Shown here one piece after another: positions 1-17,060 of a stretch of DNA of 20,308 nt; positions within the stretch are counted from its first letter, which is position 1; the number at the start of each line of letters is the position of its first letter. The DNA comes from a virus, in IMG/VR virus record IMGVR_UViG_3300027791_000173, positions 1 to 20,308 of that record. The stretch is one strand, 5' to 3'. Below the pieces are notes generated by a model. The model made no database searches. It saw only the letters and a list, made by a program, of their open reading frames with translations, and was not told where the DNA came from. The position numbers and the translations under genes are program-made.

Positions 1-711
1 TTATCATTAGATACCGGTTCTAATCACTTTGTAAATGGTATAAAAACTAAATTAGATGCTGAATTAGTACTAAGTGGTAGTAATTTAGATGGAATGACCG
101 TAAGTGGTTCATTTAGTGGTTCTTTCCAAGGTGATGGTAGTGGATTAGTTAATGTAACAACAGAAATTACAGAAGTTTCCACAGTATCAGATACTTTCAC
201 AAATGCAACTTCTAAAGTAGTAACTCACAACTTTGGTACTAAAAATGTAATAGTAACAGTATATGGTGATGATGATGGTTATTTTATACCAAATTCAATT
301 GTAACAACGAATACTAATCAAGTAACTGTAACATTTGCATCAACCGAAAGTGGTAGGATAGTAGTTGCAAAAGGTGGACATGTTGTACAAGGAGTTTCTT
401 CCGATTCAAATCTATTAGATGGTGAAGATGGAACACATTACCTAAATTATGGTAATTTTACAAGTGTTCCAAGTGGAATCGTAAGTGGTTCTTCACAAAT
501 AACAGATTTAACTACTCATAAAGAAACAGTTAGTGGAGCATCTTCATATGTAATAGACCACAACTTAAATGAACAATATCCAATAGTACAATGTTGGAAT
601 ACTTCAACTTCACAACAAGAACAAGCAGAATCAGTAACAACAAACTCAGTAAACAGAGTAACTGTTGTATTTTCAACTACATTTGCAGGAAAAATAATTG
701 TAAAAAAATAA
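1..711 (+). CDS. Tail fibre/adhesin-like structural protein, 5' end outside the window
   Basis: The reading frame is open from base 1, so the gene starts upstream; the first ATG in the window (94) lies inside the protein and is probably not the start. The visible 236 residues are rich in Ser, Thr, Gly and Val and nearly free of Cys, as in beta-rich phage fibres. A GSFSGSFQGDGSGLVNV stretch near base 110 resembles linkers common in phage tail fibres. Two related units of about 65 residues follow, near bases 181-375 and 514-708. Each has a V-x-D/T-HN motif, a central beta region with VTTN, a VTVxF strand and a closing G-K/R-I-I/V-V strand, and the second ends the protein with IIVKK. I infer a fibre or spike with two duplicated C-terminal head domains that may contact the host surface. 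The glycosyltransferase gene starts 3 bases after the stop. The family is not identified more precisely. Confidence 0.7.
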   Translation, partial: LSLDTGSNHFVNGIKTKLDAELVLSGSNLDGMTVSGSFSGSFQGDGSGLVNVTTEITEVSTVSDTFTNATSKVVTHNFGTKNVIVTVYGDDDGYFIPNSIVTTNTNQVTVTFASTESGRIVVAKGGHVVQGVSSDSNLLDGEDGTHYLNYGNFTSVPSGIVSGSSQITDLTTHKETVSGASSYVIDHNLNEQYPIVQCWNTSTSQQEQAESVTTNSVNRVTVVFSTTFAGKIIVKK

Positions 712-714
712 TTT

Positions 715-1713
715 ATGGTATATGATGTGTATTATACTACGGGTGGTGGACCTTGGGTAAATGCTGGTACTGATACATGGGTAAATCTATGGATGGAATT
801 AATTGCACCCAAATTAGATGTAAAACCTATTCTTCTTTTACATAGAAACAAACCAAAAGGACATGAAGATTACGAATTTCCAATAGAAGCTTATTGGCAT
901 GGGGATGATATTGATAAATTTGAAGAATTGTGTAATGGTGCAAGACGAATCAATATATTACATGGACATTATACTCCAATGAAGGTAATAGATGAAAATA
1001 TACATAAAATACATTCAAATGTATTACATAATTCAGTAGACCATATAATAAAATCACAATTTGGAACAGATAATTCATTTATACAACATCCATATATGGA
1101 TTCTAAATGGGAACAGAGTATAAATGATGTTTCTAAACATTCTATATGGGTTGGTTTATATGATATTCTAATAGAAAATACAAATATTACAAATTATTAT
1201 GAATTTAAACATAACTTACAATTAAGTGATTCAAATACACTAGGTTTTACAGCAAGAAGTGAAGGTAGAAAAAATCCAAGATATTTGGATGGATTGTCAT
1301 CTATACTATTTACTAATTCTAATCATTTTAAAGTGGTTTGGAAAAAAGGAATGAAAATGGATACATCTAAAATGAAAATATATCATTATATACCTGAATT
1401 TGCAAATACATTTTATAATATGGATTGGGGAATATCACATTCATGTTTTACATATGAGCCATTTGGATATTCAATATTTGAAGCAGTGGATTATGGTAAA
1501 TTGCCAATTTTACACTCAACATGGTGTAAGAATTTCGAATATCCATACAGAGCTTCATCTAAAAAAGAATTTAATGATATTTATACTCAGTTAATCAACA
1601 CTTCTTATGAAGAAAAAAATAAATGGTTTTTATCTTTAAAAGAATTCATGAAAACTAATTTTACAGATAAGGATAAGTGGATTAAGGATTTACTTGATAT
1701 TTATAATATATAG
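715..1713 (+). CDS. GT-B fold glycosyltransferase
   Basis: Predicted 332-residue cytoplasmic glycosyltransferase, probably using a nucleotide sugar. The N-terminus has a glycine-rich segment (TTGGGPWVNAGTDTW, residues 8-22), as in the first Rossmann domain of GT-B enzymes. The C-terminal half has an exact E-x7-E motif, E248-PFGYSIF-E256, followed by AVDYGKLPIL. This is the signature of the donor-binding domain in GT4-like retaining enzymes, where the second Glu contacts the sugar-nucleotide. No signal peptide or membrane segment is visible. It sits between a fibre gene and a Hint-containing structural gene, so a virion glycoprotein or a host surface glycan are both plausible acceptors; this part is inference. 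The ATG at 715 follows the upstream stop by 3 bases with no SD, which suggests coupled translation. Confidence 0.7.
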   Translation: MVYDVYYTTGGGPWVNAGTDTWVNLWMELIAPKLDVKPILLLHRNKPKGHEDYEFPIEAYWHGDDIDKFEELCNGARRINILHGHYTPMKVIDENIHKIHSNVLHNSVDHIIKSQFGTDNSFIQHPYMDSKWEQSINDVSKHSIWVGLYDILIENTNITNYYEFKHNLQLSDSNTLGFTARSEGRKNPRYLDGLSSILFTNSNHFKVVWKKGMKMDTSKMKIYHYIPEFANTFYNMDWGISHSCFTYEPFGYSIFEAVDYGKLPILHSTWCKNFEYPYRASSKKEFNDIYTQLINTSYEEKNKWFLSLKEFMKTNFTDKDKWIKDLLDIYNI

Positions 1714-1725
1714 GAAAGATATACA

Positions 1726-3066
1726 ATGGCAATAACTTCAGGAGAAACACTTAGTTTAAATAATTTAGCAGGAGCTAGAGGTCACACTCAAGGCTCAAAT
1801 GTATCACTTGGTAGTGTATATAGTGGAATAGCACAGGCTGGAGATAATATTTCAATAGGCTCATTTGGTATAGATACAATTTCATCTGGTATTACTGGAT
1901 ATACTTATGCAGTTGAAGGTACAAATGAAACATACACAATGGGATTTACAGGCGCAGGTTCTCAGTTTGCATCAATTTCATCTAGATATCAAAACTTTAC
2001 TTGGTCTGTTTCACCAACACATAATGGAGCTCCAAATGCAAGTGGATACTTGAATATTAACGCAAATCAAGATTTAAGTGCAGTAGTTAGTATTACTTAT
2101 ATGAACGCTGCATTTGCTGATGCTGACCAAGGAAATGGTACTCAAGGTACATTAATGGGGAATGTATCACACACATTATCAGCAACATTTGCTGATGGTT
2201 TTAATGACCATGCAACAAATTACAATATAGCACAAACAAAAACAGTTTATTCAGTAGATTCATATGATGGAAATTCAACAGCATTATGTTTAACTATTGA
2301 TTCACCCGTAACTCTTGCAGATGGAACAACTATTGAAGTTGGAGATTTAGAAGAAGGAGATGTATTGAGAGGATTTTCAATTGGTGGATTGGGAACTGAT
2401 GAAACTGGTTTCCTAGATTGGTCAGCTGAAACATTAACAACAGATGCACAGGATGTAGTTGTTGAAAATTTAGTATATTCTTTTTCAGGTAGACATTATG
2501 ATATTAATGATGGTGAAATAACTGCAACTGCAGAACACCCAATGTTAGTTAAAGATGCTACTGATGGAGAATATAGATTTAAAGAAATGTTTAACATTAC
2601 TACAAACGATAAATTAATTAAAGAAGTTTCTGGTGTTATTACTGAAATTGATGTAATATCTATTGATATTGTAAACCAAACATCAGAGATAGTATCTATT
2701 GATGTTGAAACAAATGATACATATTTAGTTAATGGGTATATAACTCACAATAAAGGTGGTAATTCACATACCGATGAAACAGCCGGTAGTGCACCAACAA
2801 CCCTTGCATGGGCAAATGGTACACATACTCTTTCTTGGAGTGGTGATGGTACAAATGATGTATATGATGTACAGATAGATGATAACTCAAATTTCTCATC
2901 AACATTAGTTAGTCAAACACAATGGTCAGCAACTTCAGTTGTAACAACAACAGATAGTGGTACTTTTGATATTGGAACTGGTACAAGATATGCAAGAGTA
3001 AGACAATACTCAACAAATGGGTTATTGAGTAACTACTCAAGTACATTAACATTTACAGTTAGTTAG
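1726..3066 (+). CDS. Virion-type protein with an internal intein-like Hint domain and a C-terminal FN3-like domain
   Basis: A 446-residue protein in three parts. Residues 1-187 are Ser/Gly/Asn-rich and beta-like, starting MAITSGETLSLNNLAG, a style seen in phage virion proteins. Residues 188-342 form a Hint (hedgehog/intein) domain: C188 begins block A (CLTIDSPV, then EVGDLEEGD), T268-A-E-H271 is block B, and DTYLVNGYITHN ends at H341-N342. Residues 343-446 begin KGGNS and contain a fibronectin-III-like sandwich (TLSWSGDGTNDVYDVQID, later ARVRQYS). No homing endonuclease fits in the 155-residue Hint segment. The +1 residue is Lys343, not Cys, Ser or Thr, so normal protein splicing is not expected; cleavage or ligation as in bacterial intein-like (BIL) domains is more likely. 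The start has AGGA about 11 bases upstream. A structural role rests on neighbours and composition only. Confidence 0.75.
   Translation: MAITSGETLSLNNLAGARGHTQGSNVSLGSVYSGIAQAGDNISIGSFGIDTISSGITGYTYAVEGTNETYTMGFTGAGSQFASISSRYQNFTWSVSPTHNGAPNASGYLNINANQDLSAVVSITYMNAAFADADQGNGTQGTLMGNVSHTLSATFADGFNDHATNYNIAQTKTVYSVDSYDGNSTALCLTIDSPVTLADGTTIEVGDLEEGDVLRGFSIGGLGTDETGFLDWSAETLTTDAQDVVVENLVYSFSGRHYDINDGEITATAEHPMLVKDATDGEYRFKEMFNITTNDKLIKEVSGVITEIDVISIDIVNQTSEIVSIDVETNDTYLVNGYITHNKGGNSHTDETAGSAPTTLAWANGTHTLSWSGDGTNDVYDVQIDDNSNFSSTLVSQTQWSATSVVTTTDSGTFDIGTGTRYARVRQYSTNGLLSNYSSTLTFTVS
2287..2751 (+). other. Region encoding the Hint (BIL-type) domain
   Basis: Encodes residues C188 to N342 of the preceding protein. 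The residues needed for an N-to-S acyl shift (Cys1, block B TxxH) and for Asn cyclisation (terminal His-Asn) are all present, while the +1 nucleophile is replaced by Lys. Known BIL domains with this pattern cleave at one or both ends instead of splicing. Confidence 0.75.
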
Positions 3067-3138: not shown

Positions 3139-3438
3139 ATGGCGAAAGCAATTAAGTTTACAAAAGAAGAAGTAGAATCAGTAAATGATTTAAGACAAGA
3201 TGTTGCAAATGTGTTTACACGTTTGGGACAACTTCAAATTGAAAAGAAAAGAAGGATTGAAGAAATCGAAGTTGTAGAACAAGATTTACTAAATCAACAC
3301 TCTACATTAGTAGAAAAGGAACAAACAATGTTTAAAGGTTTAAATGATAAGTATGGTGATGGAAATTACGACCCTGCAACTAATACATTTACTCCAAATA
3401 AAGAAAAAGAAGAAGTTTTAGAAGAAACCGAAGTATAA
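3139..3438 (+). CDS. Small coiled-coil phage protein, unknown function
   Basis: A 99-residue acidic protein. Residues about 8-75 look like a continuous helix with heptad-like spacing, suited to a coiled coil. The end of this helix runs into NDKYGDGNYDPATNTFTP, then an acidic tail (KEKEEVLEETEV). I recall similar helix-then-'KYG.G..dP.tg.ft' small proteins near the structural genes of marine T4-like phages, where they have no assigned role. It has its own upstream promoter-like box and precedes the sheath gene, so a virion assembly or scaffold-like role is possible but unproven. The start has an A-rich leader (TTAAAAAATAATG) and no SD. Confidence 0.75.
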   Translation: MAKAIKFTKEEVESVNDLRQDVANVFTRLGQLQIEKKRRIEEIEVVEQDLLNQHSTLVEKEQTMFKGLNDKYGDGNYDPATNTFTPNKEKEEVLEETEV

Positions 3439-3515: not shown

Positions 3516-5843
3516 ATGGCAGAAAAAATTGTATCACCTGGAGTATTTACGAGAGAAAATGACCTTTCTTTCTTATCACAAGGGATTGGTGAAATCGGAG
3601 CAGCTGTAATAGGACCTTTTCATAAGGGACCAGCATTCGTACCAACCGTTGTAAATACACAATCCGAATTCGAAGAAATCTTCGGTACACCTGATGGCTC
3701 ATACTATACAGGATATACCGTACAAAACTACCTAAGAGAAGCAGGAACAGTAACTATTGTTCGTGTGGGTCATCAAGGTGGTTATACACAAACCAAACCA
3801 ATAGCAATTGTAAGTGTTGATGATGCTTCTAATAGTCAAATATTAGGAACATTATTCGAAACACACAATGGACCGGGAACACTAGTAAGTTCTAGTATTG
3901 AAGCAGCAGTATCAGCTTCAAGTTTCGCAATAACGGTAACAGGTTCAGCTGCAATATCAGCATCTATCAGTCCAGCAGATGGAAATGATTTGGGTGATGT
4001 ATTTGGAACTAACCCAAGAGGTTCAAAAAGTTCATATGTATATAACTATTTTGAAAAAGCATCAGCTGATTCAATTACAGATGGACAAACACAAATATCT
4101 CTTATTACATTAGCAGACCAAGTATATGGAGATATTCAACATTCTTCTACACCTTGGATACAATCACAATTAGTATCTGGTGAAAGACACAATCTTTTCA
4201 AATTACATACTATCGGTGATGGTACTGTATATAATAAAGAATACAAAGTATCTATATTTAATGTAAAAGCAGCAGGTTCATCTAATGCAACTGATTACGC
4301 TACTTTCTCATTGATGATTAGAGGAAACTCCGATACCGATAAAAGAAAATCAGTATTAGAAACATATAATAACTTGAACTTAGACCCAGCTTCTCCTAAT
4401 TACATCAAAAAAGTAATTGGTGATAGAAACTTGGTAATAGATGCAAATGGAAAACAAACTGAAAATGGTGATTACGTTAATCGTTCTAAATTCGTAAGAG
4501 TTGAAACGGTTGCTGAAGGTGCTCATCCTATCGTTGCTGGACCATTTGGACATGATAAGTACAGTAATCCATCTTTCGTTGGTAATATTGGTTCACATGG
4601 TTTAGGTGAATCTATTATACCATCTGTATTATTTTCAACCGGTTCTGATGTTAACACATCATCAAAATCTATATCATTTAGTGGTATTGATTTAGAAACA
4701 CCACAAGTTAAAATAGATAATAATAATTACTTATCTCCAATACCAACCGGAGCAACACAAGGTGGAAACACAGTATTTGCATTTGATGGTACGGTAAGTG
4801 TAGTTGGTGGTACTAAGGCATTTGGATATCAACTAACCGGTTCACTATCATCTGATATGAACAAAAGACAATTTTCAGTAAGTTTCCAAGGTGGATTTGA
4901 TGGAATTAATCCAACAGTATCTATTGATAAAGGAACTGATATATCAAGTGGTAATTCACAAGGATTTAACTTATCAACTTCAACGGCTGCTGGTTCAGTT
5001 GCGTATGTAAAAGCAATCGCATCTGTATCTAATCCAGATGATTTTGATATCAACTTGGTATCTGTACCTGGAATCGTAAGAAGACATCACTCATATGTAT
5101 TTGACAAAGCAGTTGATATGTGTGAAGCTAGAGAAGATTGTTTCTTCATTGGTGATGTAGTTGGTGCAGGTGATTCAATATCACAAGCAATCGAGCAAGG
5201 TAACGCAGTTGATTCTAACTATGTAGGTACATACTACCCATGGGTTAAAACAATTGATTCACGAACTAATAAACTAATTTCAGTTCCACCATCAGTATTG
5301 ATGCCAGGAATATATGCTTCTAACGATGCAGTTGCAGCCGAATGGTTTGCACCAGCAGGTTTAAATAGAGGTGGTATAGTAGGTGCTATATCTGTACTAA
5401 ACAGATTAACACACGCTGAAAGAGATGAATTATATGAAGGAAAAATTAATCCAATCGCTCAGTTCCCTGGAGAAGGTATCGTAGCATTTGGACAAAAGAC
5501 ACTTCAAGATAAAGCATCGGCACTTGATAGAATCAATGTTAGAAGATTGATGATTAAAGTTAAGAAGTATATAGCTTCTACATCAAGATACTTAGTATTT
5601 GAACAAAATACATCTCAAACGAGAGGTAAATTCTTAAATACTGTGAATCCTTATTTAGAAGGAATACAACAAAGACAAGGATTGTATGCATTTAGAGTGG
5701 TGATGGATGAAAGTAATAACACACCAGATGTAATCGACAGAAATATATTGGCTGGACAGATTTTCTTACAACCAACTAAAACTGCAGAATTCATCGTGTT
5801 AGATTTCAATATCTTACCAACTGGAGCATCTTTTACGGCATAA
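3516..5843 (+). CDS. Contractile tail sheath protein
   Basis: A 775-residue tail sheath subunit, functional counterpart of T4 gp18. Sheath subunits polymerise around the tube and contract to drive it through the cell envelope. The N-terminus (MAEKIVSPGVFTRENDLSF, then GPFHKGP and TEFEEIFG-like text near residues 34-56) is typical of the sheath family. The C-terminal domain (about residues 645-775) carries the conserved INVRRLMIKVKKYI and FEQNTSQTRGKF stretches, and ends with a beta region including VLDFNILPTGASF. The middle (about 100-500) is Ser/Gly-rich and probably forms the exposed domains. It is somewhat longer than T4 gp18 (659 residues). The tube gene follows. The start is set by an AAGGAG at a 9-base spacing. 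The identification is firm. Confidence 0.96.
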   Translation: MAEKIVSPGVFTRENDLSFLSQGIGEIGAAVIGPFHKGPAFVPTVVNTQSEFEEIFGTPDGSYYTGYTVQNYLREAGTVTIVRVGHQGGYTQTKPIAIVSVDDASNSQILGTLFETHNGPGTLVSSSIEAAVSASSFAITVTGSAAISASISPADGNDLGDVFGTNPRGSKSSYVYNYFEKASADSITDGQTQISLITLADQVYGDIQHSSTPWIQSQLVSGERHNLFKLHTIGDGTVYNKEYKVSIFNVKAAGSSNATDYATFSLMIRGNSDTDKRKSVLETYNNLNLDPASPNYIKKVIGDRNLVIDANGKQTENGDYVNRSKFVRVETVAEGAHPIVAGPFGHDKYSNPSFVGNIGSHGLGESIIPSVLFSTGSDVNTSSKSISFSGIDLETPQVKIDNNNYLSPIPTGATQGGNTVFAFDGTVSVVGGTKAFGYQLTGSLSSDMNKRQFSVSFQGGFDGINPTVSIDKGTDISSGNSQGFNLSTSTAAGSVAYVKAIASVSNPDDFDINLVSVPGIVRRHHSYVFDKAVDMCEAREDCFFIGDVVGAGDSISQAIEQGNAVDSNYVGTYYPWVKTIDSRTNKLISVPPSVLMPGIYASNDAVAAEWFAPAGLNRGGIVGAISVLNRLTHAERDELYEGKINPIAQFPGEGIVAFGQKTLQDKASALDRINVRRLMIKVKKYIASTSRYLVFEQNTSQTRGKFLNTVNPYLEGIQQRQGLYAFRVVMDESNNTPDVIDRNILAGQIFLQPTKTAEFIVLDFNILPTGASFTA

Positions 5844-16298: not shown

Positions 16299-17060
16299 AT
16301 GAGTCACTTATCGCTTACAGAAAAACAACAATTACAATTTGATTGGAGATATAAAGGAGTATCTATCCTAAACTTACTAACAGAATCCGAAACTAATTCT
16401 ATTTCAAGTGAGTTAGAAAGAATCCGAGTTAAAAGACAAAAAAACGATGTAAATGGAGAGTGGGGAGATTATGACCCTTATATGTACCCACATAAAGAAT
16501 CTAAAGTTCTTGATGGGTTAATGAAACACCCTAAAGTAATAGAAGCTTGTGAATTTTTAATGGATTCTAAAATATTAGGTGTTCAAACTTGGGCATACTT
16601 TAAACCACCAGGTCAATTAGGTAGAGATATGCACCAAAACATATTTTACACACAATGTAATACTAACGAAATAATAAATGTTTCAGTTGCTCTTGATAAT
16701 GCAGACCCTCAGAATGGTTCTGTTTGGTATTTAGAAGGTTCTCATCGTTTAGGTAAATTACCTATTGAAATCGATGAAGAAAGAGTAGGTTCAAACCCCA
16801 AAAATTGGAGAAGTGAAAGAGGTAAAGCATGTGTATTACCAACTGACCATAATTTTCCACATATAGATGGATATCTTAGAAAAGGACAAGTAGCATTACT
16901 ACATTCAAATGTAATACATGGTTCAGAAAAAAATACATCTGATAGATTCCGAAAAGCATTCTTAACTGGTTACATAAAAGAAGGAGCTAAGTTTGCAGCT
17001 GGTGCACAAATGAATAGAAAACCTATTGATGTAGGTTCTGCAAAACTTCCCATACAATAA
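16299..17060 (+). CDS. PhyH-type Fe(II)/2-oxoglutarate oxygenase family protein
   Basis: A 253-residue protein of the phytanoyl-CoA dioxygenase (PhyH) superfamily. After an N-terminal helical region, H112-Q113-N114 (in RDMHQNIFYT) sits where the metal-binding H-x-D normally lies. NVSVALDNADPQNGSVWYLEGSHRLG (two strands and the familiar 'NG-x-W-x-x-GSH' turn) follows, then the distal H207-G and, 11 residues on, R218 for 2-oxoglutarate. So the fold markers are present, but the usual Asp ligand is Asn, which could weaken iron binding or change the reaction. Related enzymes are common in marine myoviruses and their substrates are mostly unknown. It has its own promoter-like box after the tail genes. 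Family is firm; activity is uncertain. Confidence 0.85.
   Translation: MSHLSLTEKQQLQFDWRYKGVSILNLLTESETNSISSELERIRVKRQKNDVNGEWGDYDPYMYPHKESKVLDGLMKHPKVIEACEFLMDSKILGVQTWAYFKPPGQLGRDMHQNIFYTQCNTNEIINVSVALDNADPQNGSVWYLEGSHRLGKLPIEIDEERVGSNPKNWRSERGKACVLPTDHNFPHIDGYLRKGQVALLHSNVIHGSEKNTSDRFRKAFLTGYIKEGAKFAAGAQMNRKPIDVGSAKLPIQ

Follow-up and report, generated by a model that had tools for sequence, protein, structure and literature searches.

A conserved A-type-BIL-like Hint domain with an invariant +1 lysine in a virion-type protein of uncultured large tailed phages

In the chemistry described for BIL domains, the cysteine at the start of the domain forms a thioester, the terminal asparagine cyclises and the amine that is freed attacks the thioester, whereby the two flanks become joined (PMC4031507). 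A-type BILs with His-Asn ends are reported to join their flanks by aminolysis without a nucleophile at +1, the position directly after the asparagine, although cleavage products usually dominate (PMC4031507). BILs reported so far sit in bacterial proteins that are not conserved, within their variable regions (PMC7765530). BIL2, from the BUBL1 polyubiquitin locus of Tetrahymena thermophila, lies between two separately folded domains (PMC9200820) and is reported to make a lysine isopeptide bond, handing its N-flank over to other proteins (PMC8616854). Here we analyse a Hint domain encoded in IMGVR_UViG_3300027791_000173, of which positions 1 to 20,308 constitute the window, i.e., 20.3 kb of a tailed phage with genes for tail sheath, tail tube and baseplate. 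The domain separates the N-terminal domain of a 446-residue protein from a fibronectin type III (fn3)-like domain, and its final His-Asn is followed by a lysine, K343. From its sequence, the protein probably cuts and re-joins (or cross-links) itself by means of an amine instead of the usual Cys, Ser or Thr. In the version that we regard as moderately likely, a catalytically competent, A-type-BIL-like Hint domain would autoprocess the virion protein, with K343 as the residue through which N-domain and fn3 domain become joined.

A preliminary description, made from the sequence alone, had seen an intein-like Hint domain in residues 188-342, marked by C188, T268-x-x-H271 and H341-N342 and followed by K343. 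Every one of these residues is found at its place in the 446-aa open reading frame (ORF), and the profiles agree with the assignment. The window protein scores 27.1 bits (E 6e-6) with NCBIfam TIGR01445 (intein_Nterm), above the curated cut-off of 24.5, and this model matches 22/22 members of the Hint alignment. Pfam PF14890 likewise matches 22/22 members, the window protein alone being hit weakly and below the cut-off (E 0.014-0.044). When the PDB is searched with the family profile (hmmsearch), T. thermophila BIL2 comes up at E 1e-4 and the BIL of C. thermocellum at E 0.0015. Alignment by hhalign to phage poly-Hint domains, taken from proteins scoring over the Pfam Hint cut-offs, gives a probability of 98.4 % (E 5e-15), with matching positions for TxxH and for the His at the C-terminus.

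The predicted structure leads to the same assignment. In an AlphaFold model of the 446-aa protein (mean pLDDT 75), residues 183-337 form the horseshoe-shaped, all-beta HINT fold, which over 117-139 residues aligns with numerous inteins, BILs and Hedgehog at VIA Z scores of 12-14. The top match is BIL2 (Z 14.3, root-mean-square deviation 2.0 Å over 130 residues, 21 % identity; Foldseek E 2.6e-7), and further scores are 14.1 for Hedgehog, 13.8 for the Mtu RecA intein and 13.3 for the C. thermocellum BIL. With this fold, the start Cys, the TxxH motif and the block F and G patterns, the domain is a member of the HINT superfamily. The FN3-like C-terminal domain of the preliminary description is also recovered, whereas no fold could be identified for residues 1-182 in the predicted model.

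Scans of viral contigs yielded 105 distinct homologues of complete three-domain architecture; the most distant is 39 % identical to the window protein, and together they form 25 clusters at 70 % identity and 5 at 50 %. L187, C188, H271, D331, H341, N342 and K343 are each present in 105/105, T268 and G344 each in 104/105. D331 presumably lies near the spot that the block F His occupies in many inteins, a placement made by eye. The pattern of the first scan included HNK, a possible bias towards K343; K343 is equally invariant in the scan by N-domain patterns and in the last scan, both run without the HNK pattern. The C-domain itself is too little conserved to serve as a query for scanning viral contigs. 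Among 97 sequences, K343 is encoded by AAA in 89 and AAG in 8, and synonymous codons also drift at T268, H271, H341 and N342; C188 is TGT throughout. Since synonymous variation occurs at H271, H341, N342 and K343, selection acts on the amino acid. K343 is the only invariant Lys of the family, and its retention in 105 distinct homologues, as opposed to the loss of a nucleophile in one phage, suggests that the lysine itself matters. The region after it contains on average 0.95 Lys per 102 residues (0.93 %) across the homologues and none in 34 of 97, compared with 3.3-4.1 % in neighbouring virion proteins, which is suggestive at best.

These data bear on whether the domain is active at all. It could be a structural insert or spacer between two domains, given that the case for activity is drawn from sequence and that degenerate members exist among related phage Hints. 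However, the catalytic residues have stayed invariant across deeply diverged homologues in spite of synonymous changes, and neither of the other two domains is conserved as well as the Hint. A purely structural role thus ranks fourth among the readings considered, and we think it improbable.

The architecture is equally constant. An N-domain, Hint and C-domain are present in 96/98 distinct ORFs from three viral-contig scans, the other two (L184, L052) being cut by contig ends. Among the loci retrieved solely by N-domain patterns (best 80), no homologue lacked the Hint, which argues for a fixed component as opposed to a mobile intein. The Hint fold and motifs would suit a mobile intein that has lost its +1 nucleophile, but a degenerating element would not be expected to retain every catalytic residue plus the same Lys. 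Moreover, the region of 155 aa is too short for an endonuclease, and its junction falls at a domain boundary. Class 1 inteins are followed by Cys, Ser or Thr, which never occurs here, and neither an intein-free allele nor a sporadic insertion was seen among those loci. A decaying intein therefore comes last in our ranking and is most improbable. Instead, the Hint domain appears to be a fixed, built-in part of a virion-type protein in uncultured large tailed phages, a group that is widespread.

BIL2 (PDB 6TMM, 6Y75) is the closest described system, by fold and by PDB sequence match. It shares with the phage protein the start Cys, the terminal His-Asn, the lack of Cys, Ser or Thr at +1 and a position between two folded domains. 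However, its own +1 residue is Met (MQ after the mutated Asn) where the phage family has invariant Lys. BIL2 belongs to a eukaryote and has ubiquitin-like flanks, while the C-flank of the phage protein is fn3-like and its N-flank has no ubiquitin-like match in Pfam, so that the flanking domains typical of the BUBL type are not seen. The Hedgehog Hog domain (PDB 1AT0) has the same fold and hands its start-Cys thioester to an external nucleophile, as is proposed here. In Hog, though, this is cholesterol, a sterol-recognition region follows the Hint and there is no C-terminal Asn step; in the phage protein an fn3-like domain follows and His-Asn is invariant. B-type BILs, defined by the absence of a C-terminal His-Asn, differ for the same reason.

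A-type BILs such as that of C. thermocellum (PDB 2LWY) resemble the phage Hint in fold, terminal His-Asn and non-nucleophilic +1 residue, and the combination of start Cys and His-Asn with no Cys, Ser or Thr at +1 (always Lys) is found in 105/105 homologues. Unlike reported BILs, however, the phage Hint is fixed and highly conserved, in a conserved gene with a conserved +1 residue; a glycosyltransferase gene lies upstream in 161/161 loci that have at least 1.5 kb of upstream sequence. The domain is best described as A-type-BIL-like and is not filed as an A-type BIL, because it does not reside in a variable protein and because membership would also call for autocleavage or aminolysis and for a place among A-type BILs in a Hint phylogeny. 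No paper was found on this architecture or on Hint domains as virion processing parts, subscription papers being mostly outside the search.

By analogy with BILs, processing would start with an N-S acyl shift that creates a thioester between L187 and C188. Cyclisation of N342 would then free the fn3 domain with K343 as its new N-terminus, and an amine, most likely that of K343, would resolve the thioester, joining the N-domain to fn3 and expelling the Hint; in the main variant of this scheme, the N-domain would instead be attached to an adjacent particle protein at one of its lysines. The amine might be the new alpha-amine or, before or after Asn cyclisation, that of the side chain. In the first case an ordinary peptide bond would result, in the second an isopeptide bond, and sequence cannot tell the two apart. 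A tentative proposal for the second case is that the K343 side chain attacks the C188 thioester in cis, the Lys replacing Cys, Ser or Thr, and that Asn cyclisation then leaves the domains linked by an isopeptide bond as in a branched splice; we hold this to be possible but not probable. K343 is the natural candidate amine since it is invariant at +1 and yet not needed for Asn cyclisation. The preliminary description had concluded that ordinary splicing cannot occur. K343 indeed provides no splicing nucleophile, but the flanks could still be joined by the aminolysis that follows Asn cyclisation in A-type BILs (PMC4031507).

The simplest competitor is cleavage only, in which the Hint would cut on one side or on both and the fragments would separate, so that fn3 with an N-terminal Lys343 and/or the N-domain is set free as a maturation step. 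This matches the behaviour of studied A-type BILs, which give mainly cleavage products (PMC4031507, PMC7765530). It also matches the jumbo-phage Hints that often stand at the end of their protein, with a mere 2-10 residues past His-Asn, where nothing needs joining. However, a C-terminal cut alone would not require C188, nor an N-terminal cut alone H341-N342, and both are conserved in 105/105; moreover, a cut by Asn cyclisation needs no +1 Lys. Coupled processing is favoured because both junction chemistries are kept without exception when a one-sided cut requires only one. Related phage Hints, by contrast, do lose one side, as in many ATP-grasp-like array members, which end without His-Asn, in BN7874_135 of Phage NCTB and in a protein of phage LR756508. 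We place cleavage only second and consider it conceivable, if doubtful.

Such C-terminal Hints also bear on a further option. The jumbo-phage representatives (NCTB BN7874_132/136, Erwinia phage SNUABM_7 gp117, Dickeya phage AD1 gp108; phrog_38766) resemble the phage Hint described here in belonging to virion or tail-region proteins and in having neither Cys nor Ser at +1. They differ in their location at the very end of the protein, in a +1 Ala or Thr, in other N-terminal domains and in the absence of fn3 after the Hint. As they have no C-flank for joining, their thioester might be passed to another molecule, and the same could hold here. The C188 thioester would then react with a Lys, an N-terminus or a host amine elsewhere, tying the N-domain covalently to a neighbour in the particle or to the surface of the host, like a one-shot cross-linker. 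The virion context fits such intermolecular ligation, but no acceptor can be named, and the conserved K343, G344 and post-Hint linker point to the protein's own C-flank. We therefore rank it third and regard it as unlikely. The outcomes put forward in the preliminary description, namely cleavage or a ligation between thioester and amine, are the right set. The suggested release of the fn3 domain is disfavoured as an event on its own, both junctions being kept in every homologue, and coupled ligation is favoured over it. The earlier observation is confirmed and its interpretation partly supported.

Several points nevertheless weigh against coupled joining through K343. The proposed chemistry, like the presence of the protein in the particle, is deduced from sequence, predicted fold and genomic context, and the A-type BILs studied to date mostly cleave (PMC4031507, PMC7765530). 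Related phage Hints can carry Ile, Leu, Ser, Ala, Thr or Glu at +1, and K343 may serve otherwise, e.g., in binding. The low Lys content downstream of K343 is partly shared by the neighbouring virion proteins. Finally, the Hint part of the model is of middling quality (pLDDT 50-85) and the C-terminal junction at residues 341-352 falls below 50, so that the model does not settle the geometry of the active site.

If active, the domain would be a Hint domesticated as an obligatory tool of phage-particle maturation, performing self-splicing or self-cross-linking without a partner enzyme and with an amine as the joining group. This would link BIL/BUBL ligases to virus assembly and assign a testable function to BIL domains, about whose roles in biology little is known. 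It would also provide a large natural family of +1 Lys Hint ligases for protein engineering.

The gene is embedded in a conserved order: structural gene, glycosyltransferase, Hint protein, 99-aa protein, sheath and tube (Table 1). With a virion-structural gene on one side and the gene for the tail sheath on the other, its position fits the virion-type protein of the preliminary description. The glycosyltransferase noted there is borne out by a predicted GT-B fold (pLDDT 70, pTM 0.73; Foldseek E 2e-7 to UDP-sugar transferases), visible only in the model since no Pfam or PDB sequence match was obtained. The label "fibre" for the other neighbour could not be established, as the PHROGs matched by the product of 1-711 are of the virion-structural and head-decoration kinds. 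A glycosyltransferase of 35 % identity adjoins a C-terminal-Hint protein, in reversed order, in LR756508, a distant phage of 484 kb. The linkage of the two genes is real, and it may bear on processing.

Table 1. Coordinates in the window of the Hint protein, its domains and key residues, and the adjacent genes
Feature	Position	Strand	Remark
Virion-structural/head-decoration-like protein	1..711	+	5' end outside window; phrog_16122 E 3e-14, phrog_2647 E 1e-8
GT-B fold glycosyltransferase	715..1713	+	directly upstream of Hint gene; predicted structure
Three-domain protein (N-terminal domain, Hint, fn3-like)	1726..3066	+	ORF, 446 aa
N-terminal domain, residues 1-187 (would-be N-flank)	1726..2286	+	C-end ...DSYDGNSTAL; L187 invariant
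Hint domain, residues 188-342 (155 aa)	2287..2751	+	most conserved of the three domains
C188 (TGT), presumed N-S acyl shift nucleophile	2287-2289	+	sole Cys in 82/105 homologues
T268-x-x-H271, block B motif	2527..2538 (T268 2527-2529; H271 2536-2538)	+	H 105/105, T 104/105
D331	2716..2718	+	invariant, 105/105
H341-N342, block G pair (Asn cyclisation)	2746..2751	+	105/105
K343 (AAA), +1 position	2752..2754	+	105/105; only Lys of the window protein within residues 343-446
fn3-like C-terminal domain, residues 352-446	2779..3063	+	VIA Z about 11.7 to fibronectin type III domains
99-aa protein	3139..3438	+	syntenic, no assigned function; gene order
Tail sheath protein	3516..5843	+	phrog_23 E 5e-71

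Hints terminate virion or tail-region proteins in Phage NCTB, in Erwinia and Dickeya jumbo phages, in LR756508 and in a prophage-like region of Shewanella hanedai, with 2-10 residues after His-Asn and Ala, Thr or Lys at +1. An N-terminal domain common to the window protein and the S. hanedai Hint protein was rejected (hhalign probability 1 %), the likeness being by eye only. A search of bacterial genomes with the Hint profile gave 1 relative in the genome-contig scan and 3 among 395 genomes of the order around Shewanella. In the LR756508 C-terminal-Hint protein, Gln replaces the block B His, and no isolated-phage relatives of this protein were found in viral contigs. Another ORF of this phage (L265:2761-6921), 1387 aa long and by eye similar to a portal protein, contains three intein-like insertions; the His-Asn ends of the first two are followed by Ser and Thr. 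BN7874_135 of Phage NCTB (L242:789-1250) is a free-standing degenerate Hint of 153 aa that ends in HNKVD, has neither start Cys nor block B His and whose gene immediately adjoins that of a full Hint tail protein. Matches in Vibrio phages were dismissed as relatives, being ordinary helicase inteins with +1 Cys; Vibrio phage 13VV501A, for instance, has a helicase-like protein with two intein-like insertions and ordinary +1 Thr and Cys (L270:1658-4159).

The 276-kb genome of one member of the window family (L009) holds two further Hint proteins. One, of 839 aa, has a C-terminal Hint ending in HNAKGGAPPG (L264:286-2802, G001:C1); the other, of 765 aa, has three tandem Hints and ends in VVHNK. In another family, from marine phages, an N-terminal domain that is ATP-grasp-like by eye and has no Pfam match precedes as many as four tandem Hints. 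Phage proteins of this architecture measure 450-916 aa with one to four Hints (L282:802-3492, L286, L307, L285 and others; L263:225-2519). In the arrays the next Hint often starts 2-5 residues past His-Asn, and many last members of the ATP-grasp-like arrays end in SDES in place of His-Asn.

One diverse set of phage Hints has Ile at +1 in 44 cases, Lys in 26, Ser in 8, Leu in 6, Glu in 3 and Ala and Thr in 1 each; +1 Lys is not general among phage Hints, yet it is fixed in the family of the window. A proposed general rule for phage virion Hints, by which the short tail beyond His-Asn retains a Lys, was dropped as unconvincing. Such a Lys was noted by eye in 17/18 tails of a hand-picked list and in 10/13 distinct tails of one fetched set (about 3 expected from overall composition); as a control, 43 % of other ORFs at the same loci have a Lys in their last four residues. 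Elsewhere in the window, the tail gene region includes a phytanoyl-CoA dioxygenase-like gene (16299-17060; PF05721, E 6e-22).
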